From NCBI GenBank assembly GCA_027063985.1, contig JAMOQN010000202.1, positions 1 through 35,629 of the forward strand: 35,629 nucleotides of DNA, given 5' to 3'. This document shows positions 24 through 15,038 of the stretch, in pieces. A program made the translations under genes and the position numbers. Numbering within the stretch: position 1 is the first letter of the stretch; the number at the start of each line of letters is the position of its first letter. Under the pieces are notes generated by a model that saw only the letters and a list, made by a program, of their open reading frames with translations, did not search any database and had not been told where the DNA came from. Source of the stretch: Desulfohalobiaceae bacterium (GTDB lineage Bacteria; Desulfobacterota; Desulfovibrionia; Desulfovibrionales; Desulfothermaceae).

Positions 24-55
24 AAAAAAGGGCCAGGCATTTAGCCTGGCCCTTT
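24..55 (-). terminator. Rho-independent terminator of the porin gene
   Basis: Perfect 12-bp stem AAAGGGCCAGGC (27-38) / GCCTGGCCCTTT (44-55), 5-nt loop, U-tract on the minus-strand transcript. Confidence 0.9.
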
Positions 56-82
56 AGTGGCGTCAGGAATTATTAAATACAA

Positions 83-1552
83 TTAGAAGTCATAGGTAAA
101 ACCAAAGGTTACGAGATAAGCATCGTCATCTAGGTAATCTTTATTGTTATTCCATTTTTTCCATGTATCATCGTCCATATCTAAAGATGCATATCCAAGC
201 TCTAATACTGCAGCAAGGTTTTCATAGATTTTATATTTATTAGTGAGCATTACCTGGATAAATGAGTCTTCATCAGTTAACTGATAGGTAGTATACCCTT
301 GAGGTAAATAGTCTGGTCCATATTTTTTCACTAAATCACTATCATTCGTACCCTCACCATATTCAATGGCAAAGGTGGATTTAAGATTTTCAATGAAAGA
401 AATGTCTTTTAAGGCAAAACCAATCAACCAAAGTCCCTGGGGAGAATCTTGCACCAAGGAATAGTTATTGTCGTTAAATGGAAATGTAGTTGTTGATCCA
501 ACAGCAAATCCACCAGGTGTTCCCCATCCATCAGATGCAAGTACAGGAATAGTTTCACTGCCATCCCATGGATTATCATCATCTCCAGACATATAGAAGC
601 CATAAATAGATGGAGTCATATTGTCCATTTTGTAGTCTATGGAAAGGTCCACATACCAGCCCTCTCTATCACCAATATCATCACGGGTCTTTCCCAGATA
701 GGTTAATTCTGCATCACTATCGAGATTTCCATAAATAATATTACCCTTTACAACTATAGGCTGGAACATGGATATTTCATAAGCCATACCAGCATACCAG
801 AGGTCTGCAGAATCATTTTTTAAGCGAGCTCCTGGTATATTACCATCAAAATAAGCTTGTAGTCCTCCTGAATGCACATACACCTCACCACCATCTGGAA
901 GGGCCTTCTTCTCTATAGATACATAGGCTAGATAAGGTGTAATCTTTGTACCTTCCAATTTTACAGGCACTGACAAGAAAAATGCATCTATTGCTTGCTC
1001 ACTTTCACGGCCAATACCAGCCTTTTTTCCATCCTTATAATTCAACCAAGGTCTTGCCCATCCTAGGGTTATGCCAAACATATCATTTATTGGAGCAGTT
1101 ACAATTGCACCAGTGATATCGCCATTAAATACTGGGCTAACACCAAATGTTCCAGGAAGGGACATGCCCTGGGCACCAATTTTAAAGGTGATATCAGTAT
1201 TGGGCCATTTAAATGCAAGCATTGCCCTTTTTAATTCGGTATTAGTAGCAGTATCCATTCCAGCGCTTCCCTTACCATATCTAATACGATCGTCTCCATT
1301 ACCCCAAGTGGTGTCAAATTCAAGGGCCAATGTTGCCTTTAAATTCTCATTGGCAATAAAATCAAAATAAGGTCTCAGTCTTTGGGCTGCGGTAAATTCA
1401 CTGCCATCATTATCGTCATCAAAATTATAGTTTGTAACATGAGACACATAAGCCCTAAAATAACCATAAGTCTTAAGCTCTGTAGCAGATGCACACATGG
1501 CATAAGATAGGACAAATGCCCCTGCCAGAACTGCTAAAAGTAACTTCTTCAT
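83..1552 (-). CDS. Outer-membrane porin (Desulfovibrio-type homotrimeric porin-like)
   Basis: 489-aa ORF with signal peptide (MKKLLLAVLAGAFVLSYAMCASA), beta-strand/aromatic-rich sequence, C-terminal Phe (VTFGFTYDF); SD AAGGAGG upstream. Confidence 0.85.
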   Translation of the reverse strand: MKKLLLAVLAGAFVLSYAMCASATELKTYGYFRAYVSHVTNYNFDDDNDGSEFTAAQRLRPYFDFIANENLKATLALEFDTTWGNGDDRIRYGKGSAGMDTATNTELKRAMLAFKWPNTDITFKIGAQGMSLPGTFGVSPVFNGDITGAIVTAPINDMFGITLGWARPWLNYKDGKKAGIGRESEQAIDAFFLSVPVKLEGTKITPYLAYVSIEKKALPDGGEVYVHSGGLQAYFDGNIPGARLKNDSADLWYAGMAYEISMFQPIVVKGNIIYGNLDSDAELTYLGKTRDDIGDREGWYVDLSIDYKMDNMTPSIYGFYMSGDDDNPWDGSETIPVLASDGWGTPGGFAVGSTTTFPFNDNNYSLVQDSPQGLWLIGFALKDISFIENLKSTFAIEYGEGTNDSDLVKKYGPDYLPQGYTTYQLTDEDSFIQVMLTNKYKIYENLAAVLELGYASLDMDDDTWKKWNNNKDYLDDDAYLVTFGFTYDF

Positions 1553-1613
1553 ACCAAACTTCCTCCTTCTGCCTTTTTTTGTTAAACAAACCTGACGCCA
1601 CCAACGACCAAAA

Positions 1614-1641
1614 AATATAAACAGGTTCTAAATAAAATCAA
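1614..1641 (-). promoter_or_regulatory. Putative sigma70-type promoter of the porin
   Basis: On the minus strand: TTGATT (1641-1636), 16-nt spacer, TATATT (1619-1614); predicted TSS around 1607. Confidence 0.5.
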
Positions 1642-1797: not shown

Positions 1798-4700
1798 ATG
1801 ATGACAAAAAAGAAAATTTTTCAGGCTATATTCTTCTCTCTTTTGTCAATTTTCATCTTTTATTTATCTTTGAGCGTTACCCTAAATAACTTCTTACCCA
1901 CACTCACGTCAAAAATAAATAAGATCCAAAAAAATCTTATTTCATACGACAAAGTGGACTTAGAGCTATTTCCATATCCTGGGATTAAAATATCCAATTT
2001 AAAAATAAAAATTGAAAAAACAATAAAACTTAAATTTAAGAGAACTGATATTTTTGTGAACTTCGTAGGTCTCCCCTCCCATAAATTTCTTGGCATAAAA
2101 GCGAGTTTTGGAACTATTTTTCTCTATAATCTGGATCTTACCCAAAGAAAACAAAACAAATCCTTTTCTATCCCCAAAATTCCAGTGGAATTTATAGAGC
2201 TGTCAAATATCTCTGCAAACACCAAGCTAAACGAACTGGACCTTAAGCTGAACAAAGTTTATACCTTTATTTCCCTGAAAAAAGATAAAATTAGCCTAAA
2301 ATGCAGAGGTAAATCAAATCTAACAAAAAATTTCAATATTGAGGGACAACTAACTAAAGATCAAAAAGGAATAAGTGCCAAGCTCCACCAGCTTGACTTA
2401 AATAAGTTATTTAAAATACTCCCCCAAAATTATTCATATTTTAAAGACATCTCTGGGCTAATTAATACAGACATTAGGCTTGAGATAAAAGACAAACAAA
2501 TAACAGCAAAAATTAACACAACTTCAAGGGAACTGCATCTAGGCAATAAAATTGAGAAACTGGAATTAAAACTAGCAGCCCTAATAGATAACAAGACACA
2601 CCTAAGCAAAATCATTATAAAAAACTTCCACACCAAATATCCATATATAAATATTGCAGGAAAAATAGAAAGCTCTCCAAATAAAACAAATGTTAAAATA
2701 ACAGGCCAGAAAATAAATATCTCCAATTTGATAGAATTTTACAAAAAATTTCCTTTAAAAAACCCTATTTTAGACACTGTGTTTTCAATTGCCAAAGGTG
2801 GGATCTTGTATAACAGCTCCTTTGATCTGGAAAAAATAAATCATAAGAGTACCTGGAGTCTTGGAGGAGAATGTGCAGATACAGATGTCTTGATACCCTA
2901 TTTTAAACTTCCGCTAAAAAAAGTCTCTGCAAAAATAAATATCAAAAACAACGTTCTTATGTGTAGAGAAATAAAAGGATTTTATAGAAATTCAAAGATT
3001 CAAAATGGATATTTAGACCTTGGTTTAAATAAAGATTTAACTCCTTTTGTTATTAATACGCACATTTATTTTGATTTAAAGGACCTAAATCCACTTTTAA
3101 ATATACTCCAGGTATCTGATAAAATTACCAATGAACTAGAAAAATTAAATATCAATTCTGGCAATTGCACAGGAATTTTTACCTTAAACAAAAATTCAAA
3201 CAAATACTTATGGAAGGTAATTACCAAAAAAATTAATATGAATGCAAAAGTAAAAAATACCCCTCTAAAGCTTAATGCTGATCTTTTTTCCATTACAAAT
3301 GGCAATATTTATGTAAAAAATGCAAATATAAATCTGAAAAGGTCTAGATTAAAAAATGTAGTTTTAAGTACAGATTTCAATTCAAAGGATATAAAATTGC
3401 TATTAAATAATTCAAAAATAGATATAAAAGAAATAAAAGATGTCTTTAACAATTTTTTTCCATTAAATAATAGACTTAACATAATAGGGAGTCTGTTTTT
3501 AAACAAATTAAAAGTCCACTACAATTACCATCAAAAGAAACTAGAAGACTATCTATTCCTTGGATCAATATCTTATTTAAGAATAAAGGAGTTAAATTTA
3601 AAAAACAAGCTACCCAAAAAAATTAATGTCTCAGTATCAGGTGGCAATTTTTCTATATTACCACAAAATTTAAAGTTAACATCCGTTACAATTAACACCC
3701 TAAAATCAAAAATAAAATTAAATTATCTGAAATTAATGGGTAACGTAGAAAGTCCTAAGTCAGTAAAAATGGAATTTTCAGGAGACATATCTAAGGAAGC
3801 TCAAGAAATCTTAAAAAAAATTAACCCCTATATGAAATTCATAAAAACAAATAAAAGCCTTCACTTAAGGCAAATGAAATTTAATATGACCAGCCAGGAT
3901 ATAAAGGTCAATGGAGATATGATATTAAACGGGATTTTTACTAACTTACAGGTAGAAAAAAATCCTCAAAAATTTTCTTCTGAGCTTAGTTTAAGCTACA
4001 ATGCTACAAAATGTAGCATTCAATTTAACAAACAAAAAGAAAAAATCTTTATTAATTTCAAAGGAAAATTAACACACAATGCAGTAGATAGACTACTTGT
4101 AAAAAATCCTTATTTAAAAGATAAAATCGCTGGTAATTTTAGTTTAAATTTTTCTTTAAATCCATTTTACATTATAAATTCCAATGGGTTCATAAATATA
4201 AATTCCATGACCATTGCTCCTGATTTAGGGTTATCAATAAACCAACTCAGTGCGAACTCCAACAACAATGTGATTTTAATTAAAAAATCTTTAATTTATT
4301 TATTTAAGGACAAGATAAATTTATACGGGAAGATACATTTAATAAAGGGACGCAATAACATAAATATAAGACTAAAATCCCATACATTACATCTTGATCC
4401 TTTAATTAATAAATTTAGCAAAAAACATTCTACTAACTCAAATGTAAAATTAACAGGAACTGTTTACTTTAATATTAAAAACACTTTTTATAAAAAGCGT
4501 GTTATCAGAGATATAGATGGAAAAATACTAATTAACAATGGTTTTAAAGAATTAAGGATATACAAAGGTTTTTTGTGTGCATTACCAATAAAAGCTGTTT
4601 TAAAAAATGATAAAAAGACAAAAAAACTAGATGTAAAGATATCCTCACCAAATTTTCCCATACAAGATACGTTACAATGCCTTGTATCTAGCCAAAAGAA

Positions 4701-5289
4701 ATCGATTACTGGAACATCAAAAATAAAGATAACTCTCCATGCAGATCTAAATGATAATCCTATTAAAACCCTTAATGGAGATTTTTTCTTTGAATCAAAA
4801 GATGGTAAGATCTTTAAACTCACATTAATATCCCAGATCCTGAGTATCATAAATTCAACAGAAATATTTTTTGGCAAAATTCCAGACCTGGGAAAAGTGG
4901 GTTTTAAATATACAGACCTCCAGGCAATAGGTATCATTAAACACGGATGCCTGATATTAAAAAAATCCTACCTAAACGCTACCAATATGGAGCTTGCCTT
5001 TCATGGAAACATTGATTTAAATACAAAAAAAGTAGATTTAATAGTCCTATTTTCCCCTTTAAAGACAGTTGATCGGCTCGTGAAAAAGATTCCTATTCTG
5101 CGAAATATAACTGGCGGAAATTTGGTAGTAATTCCCTTTCAGGCCAAGGGCACAATTGACAATCCAATAATAATTCCCTTATCTCCCAAGGCAGTTGGGT
5201 CTGAGGTCGTAAAAATCTTAAAAAACACCATAAAATTGCCATTTACCATATTTCAGCCAATTCGACCTCATAAAATAAATGAAAAATAA
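1798..5289 (+). CDS. AsmA/TamB-like large periplasmic/envelope protein
   Basis: 1163-aa ORF with one N-terminal TM; repetitive beta-rich sequence; AsmA-like C-terminal region (LNATNMELAFHGNIDLNTKKVDLIVLFSPL...). Confidence 0.75.
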   Translation: MMTKKKIFQAIFFSLLSIFIFYLSLSVTLNNFLPTLTSKINKIQKNLISYDKVDLELFPYPGIKISNLKIKIEKTIKLKFKRTDIFVNFVGLPSHKFLGIKASFGTIFLYNLDLTQRKQNKSFSIPKIPVEFIELSNISANTKLNELDLKLNKVYTFISLKKDKISLKCRGKSNLTKNFNIEGQLTKDQKGISAKLHQLDLNKLFKILPQNYSYFKDISGLINTDIRLEIKDKQITAKINTTSRELHLGNKIEKLELKLAALIDNKTHLSKIIIKNFHTKYPYINIAGKIESSPNKTNVKITGQKINISNLIEFYKKFPLKNPILDTVFSIAKGGILYNSSFDLEKINHKSTWSLGGECADTDVLIPYFKLPLKKVSAKINIKNNVLMCREIKGFYRNSKIQNGYLDLGLNKDLTPFVINTHIYFDLKDLNPLLNILQVSDKITNELEKLNINSGNCTGIFTLNKNSNKYLWKVITKKINMNAKVKNTPLKLNADLFSITNGNIYVKNANINLKRSRLKNVVLSTDFNSKDIKLLLNNSKIDIKEIKDVFNNFFPLNNRLNIIGSLFLNKLKVHYNYHQKKLEDYLFLGSISYLRIKELNLKNKLPKKINVSVSGGNFSILPQNLKLTSVTINTLKSKIKLNYLKLMGNVESPKSVKMEFSGDISKEAQEILKKINPYMKFIKTNKSLHLRQMKFNMTSQDIKVNGDMILNGIFTNLQVEKNPQKFSSELSLSYNATKCSIQFNKQKEKIFINFKGKLTHNAVDRLLVKNPYLKDKIAGNFSLNFSLNPFYIINSNGFININSMTIAPDLGLSINQLSANSNNNVILIKKSLIYLFKDKINLYGKIHLIKGRNNINIRLKSHTLHLDPLINKFSKKHSTNSNVKLTGTVYFNIKNTFYKKRVIRDIDGKILINNGFKELRIYKGFLCALPIKAVLKNDKKTKKLDVKISSPNFPIQDTLQCLVSSQKKSITGTSKIKITLHADLNDNPIKTLNGDFFFESKDGKIFKLTLISQILSIINSTEIFFGKIPDLGKVGFKYTDLQAIGIIKHGCLILKKSYLNATNMELAFHGNIDLNTKKVDLIVLFSPLKTVDRLVKKIPILRNITGGNLVVIPFQAKGTIDNPIIIPLSPKAVGSEVVKILKNTIKLPFTIFQPIRPHKINEK

Positions 5290-13586: not shown

Positions 13587-15038
13587 ATGGCCATAAAAAG
13601 AAGACAGATGTTAATTTCAATATTACCAGGGGAACTAATTGAAGTGGCATTAATTAAAGACCACACACTTGATGAATACTATGTTGAGATGCTAAGTACC
13701 CATAAAATAAAGAGAAATATATATAAAGGGGTGATCCACAATATAGACACATCCCTTCAGGCGGCATTTGTAAATTATGGGGACAAGAAAAATGGGTTCC
13801 TACAAATAGACGAGATACACCCAGATTACTATACATCAGACTTAAGGCCACAAAAGGGACAGAAATTCCCGCCAATTCAAAGGGTATTAAAGCCTGGTCA
13901 GGAGATATTGGTCCAGATAGTAAAAGAACCCACTGAAAATAAAGGTGCATTTTTAACTACTTATCTCACCCTTCCTGGCAGATATCTTGTCTTAACTCCA
14001 GGGAAAGAACAGGTGGCTATTTCAAGGAAGATTGAAGATGATGAAGAGAGACAACGACTTAAAATGGTAATCAATGAGTTCAAGCTGGAACCAGGATTGG
14101 GAGTAATAGTGAGGACTGTGAGTGAAGGTCAAAACAAAACAAACCTATTTCGGGATCTCCAATTTCTAACAAGACTCTGGAAGGACATCAAAAAAAAGGC
14201 CATGGAAGAATCTGCCCCTTGCCTTATTTATGAAGAAAAAGATCTGGCATTTAGGGCAATTAGAGATTATCTAACCTCTGATGTCAAACATATATGGGTA
14301 GACAATAAAGATGTGGCGCGCAAATTAGAAGAATATGTGAATCTTGTATTTCCAAGACGAAAAAACATGGTGAAGTGTTATCTATGTGATGAGATTGACC
14401 TATTTGACAAATTCCATATAAAAGATCAAATAAAAAAAATCTTTGATAGACGGGTAAAATTACCTTCAGGAGGAGAAATAGTAATAGACCAAACAGAGGC
14501 CCTAACTGCCATTGACATAAACTCAGCAAAGGTTTCTGGTGAATCTTCTTTTAAGGACATGGCATACAAGACAAACTTAGAGGCCACAAAAGAGATCGCC
14601 AATCAACTGAGATTGCGGGACATAGGTGGACAAATTGTAATAGATTTTATAGAGATGAAAGATAAAAAATATGCCAGGGAGGTTGAAAAACAACTTAAAA
14701 CATACCTTAAAAATGACAAGGCCAGAACCTCTGTAGGTAAAATATCTAAATTTGGGCTTTTGGAAATTGTAAGGCAAAAAATGGGCTCATCAGCAATCTC
14801 CAGTATATATAAAGAGTGTCCAAAATGTAAGGGAATGGGACATGTGGTGAGTATAGAGTGGAGAGCTGCCCAGGTACTAAAAAACATCCACAAACAGATT
14901 TCAAAACAAGATTCACCTAATCCCTTAGAATATATCCTTGAAAAGGAACTGTGTCTTTATCTTTTGAACAATAAAAAACAAACCTTAATTGATATGGAAA
15001 AAAAATACCATAAAAAAATTTTAATAGAAGAGATATAA
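13587..15038 (+). CDS. rng: Ribonuclease E/G family
   Basis: KGVIHNIDTSLQAAFVNYGDKKNGFLQIDEIHPDYY (S1-like), LPSGGEIVIDQTEALTAIDINSAKVSG, GLLEIVRQKM, CPKCKGMG. Confidence 0.95.
   Translation: MAIKRRQMLISILPGELIEVALIKDHTLDEYYVEMLSTHKIKRNIYKGVIHNIDTSLQAAFVNYGDKKNGFLQIDEIHPDYYTSDLRPQKGQKFPPIQRVLKPGQEILVQIVKEPTENKGAFLTTYLTLPGRYLVLTPGKEQVAISRKIEDDEERQRLKMVINEFKLEPGLGVIVRTVSEGQNKTNLFRDLQFLTRLWKDIKKKAMEESAPCLIYEEKDLAFRAIRDYLTSDVKHIWVDNKDVARKLEEYVNLVFPRRKNMVKCYLCDEIDLFDKFHIKDQIKKIFDRRVKLPSGGEIVIDQTEALTAIDINSAKVSGESSFKDMAYKTNLEATKEIANQLRLRDIGGQIVIDFIEMKDKKYAREVEKQLKTYLKNDKARTSVGKISKFGLLEIVRQKMGSSAISSIYKECPKCKGMGHVVSIEWRAAQVLKNIHKQISKQDSPNPLEYILEKELCLYLLNNKKQTLIDMEKKYHKKILIEEI

Follow-up and report, generated by a model that had tools for sequence, protein, structure and literature searches.

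The mRNA of DESULF_POR1-type porins in the Desulfovibrionales carries two short complementary segments, one in the 5'UTR and the other at the foot of the intrinsic terminator, whose letters vary between species with their complementarity retained, and which, on this comparative evidence, almost certainly pair with each other. The pairing probably takes place in cis. That pairing in cis also stabilises the porin mRNA is considered an evenly balanced proposition, and the complete proposal is advanced more tentatively: an order-wide panhandle, missing in a paralogue-rich genus, in which the 5' end pairs in cis with the terminator foot, the resulting helix stacks on a 5' hairpin and on the terminator, and the message is protected without Hfq or ProQ.

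The porin gene and its complementary arms in the window

The window analysed here is a stretch of 35,629 nt from a Desulfothermus-like genome of the Desulfovibrionales, and a direct reading of the sequence places the porin as its first gene (Table 1). The porin of such bacteria that has been studied, DVU0799 of D. vulgaris, is the major porin and among the most abundant outer-membrane proteins, and a deletion mutant was not obtained (PMC5686591). DVU0799 probably belongs to the same NCBI family as the window porin.

Table 1. Features of the porin transcription unit in the window
Feature	Position	Strand	Remarks
Intrinsic terminator hairpin	27..55	-	Perfect; 12-bp stem, 5-nt loop, U-rich tail; could stack on the long-range helix
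3' arm of long-range helix	56..67	-	mRNA CCUGACGCCACU; adjoins terminator stem (55..27); exact 11-mer 57-67
AU-rich 3'UTR linker, stop codon to 3' arm	68..82	-	From sequence
Porin CDS	83..1552	-	489 aa; NF033939 DESULF_POR1, full-length match, E 2.2e-127, 425 bits (cut-off 250)
Shine-Dalgarno sequence AGGAGG	1562..1567	-	From sequence; outside the helix
5' arm of long-range helix	1591..1602	-	mRNA GGUGGCGUCAGG; -50 to -39 from ATG; exact 11-mer 1591-1601
Predicted sigma-70-type promoter, TTGATT-16-TATATT	1614..1641	-	Prediction only

The segment GTGGCGTCAGG at 57-67 is the exact reverse complement of CCTGACGCCAC at 1591-1601, an 11-nt match that had been pointed out in an earlier note on this DNA and is borne out by direct reading. 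Written in the mRNA sense, the 5' arm is GGTGGCGTCAGG (1602..1591), 39-50 nt ahead of the ATG, and the 3' arm is CCTGACGCCACT (67..56), immediately 5' of the terminator stem; together they give a helix of 12 bp, counting one terminal G-U pair. The transcription start site (TSS) predicted from the promoter lies at ~1607, about 5 nt ahead of the 5' arm.

The strength of this helix was compared with that of other genes of the same genome using the stacking sum in a scan of 192 genes, for which no terminator was required (an earlier scan of ~200 kb that did require a terminator gave only 6 units). The porin flanks formed the strongest helix of all, with -29.5 kcal/mol against a mean of -11.5 and a standard deviation of 2.3, and the p value against dinucleotide shuffles was at the floor of the test (0.005). 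Abundance of the 11-mer elsewhere in the genome, named in the earlier note as an argument against its reading, was not encountered: the 11-mer, and even its 9-mer core GGCGTCAGG, has three occurrences in the 1.77-Mb assembly (84% complete), of which two are the porin arms and one lies inside a cstA-like coding gene. The same note had judged the match non-random, which holds good, but its estimate of 50x50/4^11 ignores base composition and the free choice of features in a 35-kb window; the case against chance is therefore taken from the comparative data and not from that estimate.

Conservation and covariation across the order

Among the closest relatives, Desulfothermus okinawensis JCM 13304 (G002), of the same genus as the window, carries the arms GTGGCGTCAGG/CCTGACGCCAC, and a Desulfohalobiaceae MAG of that genus (G003) carries GTGGCGTCAGG/CCTGGCGCCGC, in which two substitutions convert pairs to G-U and every pair is kept. 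In G004 the contig begins within the porin gene and the 3' arm is kept. The porin of G005, with 40% protein identity, has arms GGCGTCAGG/CCTGACGCC and that of G009 GGCGTCAGGCG/CGCCTGACGCC.

A porin of the DESULF_POR1 type is present in 104 of the 120 Desulfovibrionales genomes searched, and 110 usable porin loci from 23 genera and 6 families made up the comparison set. Across these loci the letters of the arms vary and the complementarity stays, as in GGTGTCAGG/CCTGACACC (L021), GGAAGTGGCA/TGCCACTTCC (L073) and GATGAATGCG/CGCATTCATC (L042), and in the further diverged pairs GCGTCAGGAAC/GTTCCTGACGC (L020), TCACTTGGGTT/GACCCAAGTGA (L029), GAGTGTGGAA/TTCCGCACTC (L043) and TGAAGGCTCA/TGAGCCTTCA (L102). 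The score of a locus was the Turner stacking sum of the strongest gap-free helix that the 100 nt upstream of its start codon can form with the segment reaching from the stop codon to the terminator. Gapped RNAduplex energies computed for all 120 nt of the 5' region separated matched (-24.7) from mismatched (-20.4) flanks noisily and were replaced by these ungapped sums, gapped duplexes on narrowed regions being applied for two-part helices.

With each genus represented by a single locus, matched 5' and 3' flanks averaged -19.6 and flanks swapped between genera -15.0; the weakest matched resample (-18.0) was still stronger than the strongest among 2000 swapped sets (-17.5). Since both sides are maximised identically, this contrast is not a selection effect. 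It persists in the 35 loci (12 genera) outside genus g13 that lack GTCAG in the 5' flank, at -15.95 matched vs -12.39 swapped, none of 5000 swaps being as good. Against dinucleotide shuffles, the loci outside g13 reached p<0.05 in 47 of 72 cases and p<=0.01 in 33 of 72. At least one locus at p<0.05 was found in 19 of the 22 genera other than g13, a level more easily reached by genera with many loci; two of the three remaining genera, g23 and g30, have two-part helices in the gapped test (p 0.045 and 0.005, respectively), and in the third, g26, an end-to-end helix was not found by the shuffle test.

Covariation was also assessed in 28 aligned arm pairs with the GTCAG core, in which 89.6% of cells are paired against 25-42% when the arms are slid, and the covariation score is 0.157 against 0.103 shuffled and at most 0.066 slid; these rows were aligned via their own best helix, which favours pairing, a bias of which the genus-swap test is free. 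Within the eight core columns, G-U takes the place of a Watson-Crick pair in 8 cells and A-C occurs once, and in the adjoining column one genus (g15) has A-C, so that its helix is 8 bp. Replacement of Watson-Crick pairs by G-U wobbles points to a helix that acts as RNA and not as DNA. The covariation in relatives for which the earlier note had called is thus present in many genera of the order, and supports its reading of the match as an RNA contact between the two UTRs.

These observations also bear on the reading of the two copies as DNA sites, either inverted repeats recognised by an invertase or a pair of operator half-sites bound by a single regulator, which is regarded as very improbable. 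Conservation of the core GGCGTCAGG as a sequence in many genera would suit such sites; however, f4, f6, g22, g9, g25 and g27 have arms of different sequence with complementarity retained, G-U pairs are tolerated, and the second copy is located in the 3'UTR, at the terminator. The invertible segment, which was the third model of the earlier note, is not supported: the arms co-vary between species, keep G-U pairs and span only ~8-16 bp, and the porin had one orientation in every locus read, none being seen with the gene inverted between promoter and terminator.

Genus g13, probably Desulfovibrio in the strict sense, has many porin copies per genome, and 2 of its 38 loci reached p<0.05 against dinucleotide shuffles, which is the chance rate; loss of the helix thus accompanies porin expansion. 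Genomes of this genus such as G019, G097 and G117 carry many DESULF_POR1 copies and are devoid of the helix. Distant porin homologues at 23 loci from other orders of the phylum gave no such helix signal, and the end-to-end helix, as far as these genomes allow it to be traced, looks like an innovation of the Desulfovibrionales.

Geometry of the arms

The positions of the arms are constant relative to the signals of the transcript. Loci with a clear helix have the 5' arm mostly at -80 to -24 relative to the ATG, its end lying 24-72 nt upstream of the start codon, and the Shine-Dalgarno (SD) sequence is consequently not covered by the helix. The 3' arm ends mostly within ~12 nt of the terminator stem, distances being inflated in a few loci (e.g. 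L020, L051) where the terminator call is wrong. At loci with a clear promoter, in most of f1 and f6 and in g22, g28 and g9, the 5' arm begins ~6-13 nt past the predicted TSS; TSS distances were left out at several g15 loci and at L019, L023 and L055, where promoter prediction is unreliable. In g14, L045 of g16 and f4 the arm begins at ~+25 to +30, and a hairpin fills the gap, in most cases ending at or near the arm. Hairpins immediately 5' of the 5' arm are present in 15 of 49 loci, compared with 13% in shuffles. When the 5' and 3' UTRs were folded jointly with a neutral spacer, the 5' hairpin (where present), the long-range helix and the terminator followed closely upon one another in many loci.

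Possible modes of action of the helix

According to the favoured model, the porin mRNA bears complementary arms at its 5' end and at the terminator foot, and on completion of transcription these would pair within one molecule, closing the mRNA as a panhandle. In genera with a 5'-terminal hairpin ahead of the 5' arm, the hairpin, the long-range helix and the terminator could be stacked end to end. Such a panhandle would hide the 5' end and the 5'UTR from decay starting there, for example by RNase E/G, and would leave the ribosome site free, so that the mRNA of this very abundant porin would be expected to last long. Stabilisation is favoured over repression because the 5' region would be tied to the terminator foot, the SD sequence is open, the window also encodes an RNase E/G enzyme (13587-15038) and porins of this kind are very abundant; 5' stem-loops are known to protect mRNAs (review PMC7509114). 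Counting against protection, the predicted 5' end in the window extends a few nt beyond the helix, and the TSSs are predictions that are not clear in some genera.

The first model of the earlier note was a ~50-nt sRNA, consisting of the 3' arm and the terminator, which RNase processing would release from the mRNA and which would bind porin 5'UTRs in trans, giving a feedback such as that of OppZ and CarZ of Vibrio. This rival is considered unlikely. The arm just 5' of an intrinsic terminator has the usual layout of a 3'UTR sRNA and is complementary to its own transcript, as in OppZ/CarZ (PMC7398697), and an AU-rich linker precedes it in the window. A sRNA-like element antisense to a porin mRNA is moreover present in a related genome (G005). 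Recent paralogues with common arms (G099, G036, G075) could cross-regulate, their arms being able, to judge from their sequences, to pair across mRNAs as well as within them. However, OppZ is released through cleavage by RNase E and depends on Hfq, and pairing over a long distance within its own transcript was excluded (PMC7398697), whereas profile searches for Hfq (PF17209) and for ProQ (PF04352) found neither in any of the 22 Desulfovibrionales genomes searched, with the positive controls responding. In L020, L041 and L095 the 3' arm begins just 8-9 nt past the stop codon, leaving scant space for processing. Although sRNAs independent of Hfq exist, pairing in cis is preferred on three grounds: neither Hfq nor ProQ was found, the 5' arm is situated 5' of the ribosome-binding site and outside the region where ribosome occlusion usually occurs, and, apart from the arms themselves, the core is found in the genome only in the cstA-like gene. 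Diverged paralogues within one genome (G052; G030; L020/L051 of G082) pair best with themselves, which agrees both with action in cis and with autoregulation in trans. Of the three models in the earlier note, the one in which the mRNA ends pair in cis gives the best fit, and the OppZ/CarZ-like sRNA retains in its favour the position of the element before the terminator.

Pairing in cis might alternatively lower expression, either because ribosomes load more slowly from the 5'UTR or because a substrate for RNase III is created. The precedent is icaR of S. aureus, in which complementary 5' and 3' UTR segments of one mRNA pair, translation is blocked and RNase III cuts the duplex (PMC3868564); the stacked helices of several porin loci jointly exceed 20 bp. 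Repression is nevertheless quite unlikely here. The icaR 3'UTR is long and its anti-SD motif UCCCCUG pairs with the SD sequence, lowering expression (PMC3868564), whereas the porin 3'UTR is short and, with the 5' arm ending where it does, the SD sequence is uncovered. For so abundant a porin a permanent brake is also less expected, although a conditional brake is possible. Stabilisation by the panhandle accordingly remains the preferred reading.

Comparison with known systems and significance

The nearest parallel is the hbs mRNA of B. subtilis, in which, as summarised in a review, a 14-nt helix between the 5' and 3' UTR shields the mRNA against RNase Y, which would otherwise cleave it in the 5'UTR (Braun et al. 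2017, via PMC7821165). On that summary, both systems have a helix of similar length joining the two UTRs of one mRNA; hbs is a single gene of a Firmicute, whereas the porin helix belongs to the Desulfovibrionales, co-varies throughout the order and has its arms near the TSS and at the terminator, and its protective role is proposed from these features.

The ompA mRNA of E. coli, which encodes a major outer-membrane protein, bears a local 5'-terminal stem-loop. It resembles the porin message in having a structure at the 5' end of the mRNA of a major outer-membrane protein, but the ompA structure is a local hairpin, whereas the porin 5' arm would find its partner at the 3' end of the mRNA, with a local hairpin added in some genera.

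Three contacts between 5' and 3' UTRs within an mRNA, RNAIII, icaR and hbs, all from Firmicutes, are named in a review of bacterial 3'UTRs from 2021, which states that a wider use of such contacts among bacterial genes calls for more investigation (PMC7821165). A literature search found no report on porin UTRs of Desulfovibrionales. The porin helix is a strong candidate for such a contact outside the Firmicutes, being present with covariation in many genera of an order in which neither Hfq nor ProQ was found in the 22 genomes searched. Culturable sulfate reducers thereby offer porin genes in which the question can be tested, the natural variants serving as ready compensatory mutants, and the helix may help to explain how one gene can supply a membrane protein in such abundance.

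Other observations

Apart from the porins, a gene with HDOD and HD domains (L170:2870-4096) has 5' and 3' flanks that are complementary to each other over an AT-rich stretch of 25 bp. A search of Rfam at the porin loci gave nothing over the gathering score, with sub-threshold matches only, in 7 loci.

The sRNA-like element of G005 lies upstream of its second porin, at ~2678-2755 of L018 on the minus strand (G005:C25), and has a 12-bp stem and a U run in ~75 nt. It has 19 nt of perfect complementarity to positions -25..-7, over the SD sequence, of the other porin mRNA of that genome (L017, G005:C44), and also holds CCTGACGC, the core of the 3' arm of the L017 mRNA. The arrangement resembles that of MicF beside ompC. 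A search within the genus for a second antisense site to the porin 5'UTR gave no strong candidate.

Upstream of the porin promoter, the window contains an AT-rich inverted repeat, AGTAAAAATTTTTTTAC / GTAAAATTTTTTTTACT, at ~1658-1692, and similar boxes, GTAAAAAAA(A/T)TTTnAC, precede many porin genes throughout the order, constituting a candidate regulator site or UP-like element. Divergent from the porin, the plus strand at 1798-5289 encodes a large protein that matches YhdP below the threshold and may be an envelope protein of the AsmA/YhdP kind.
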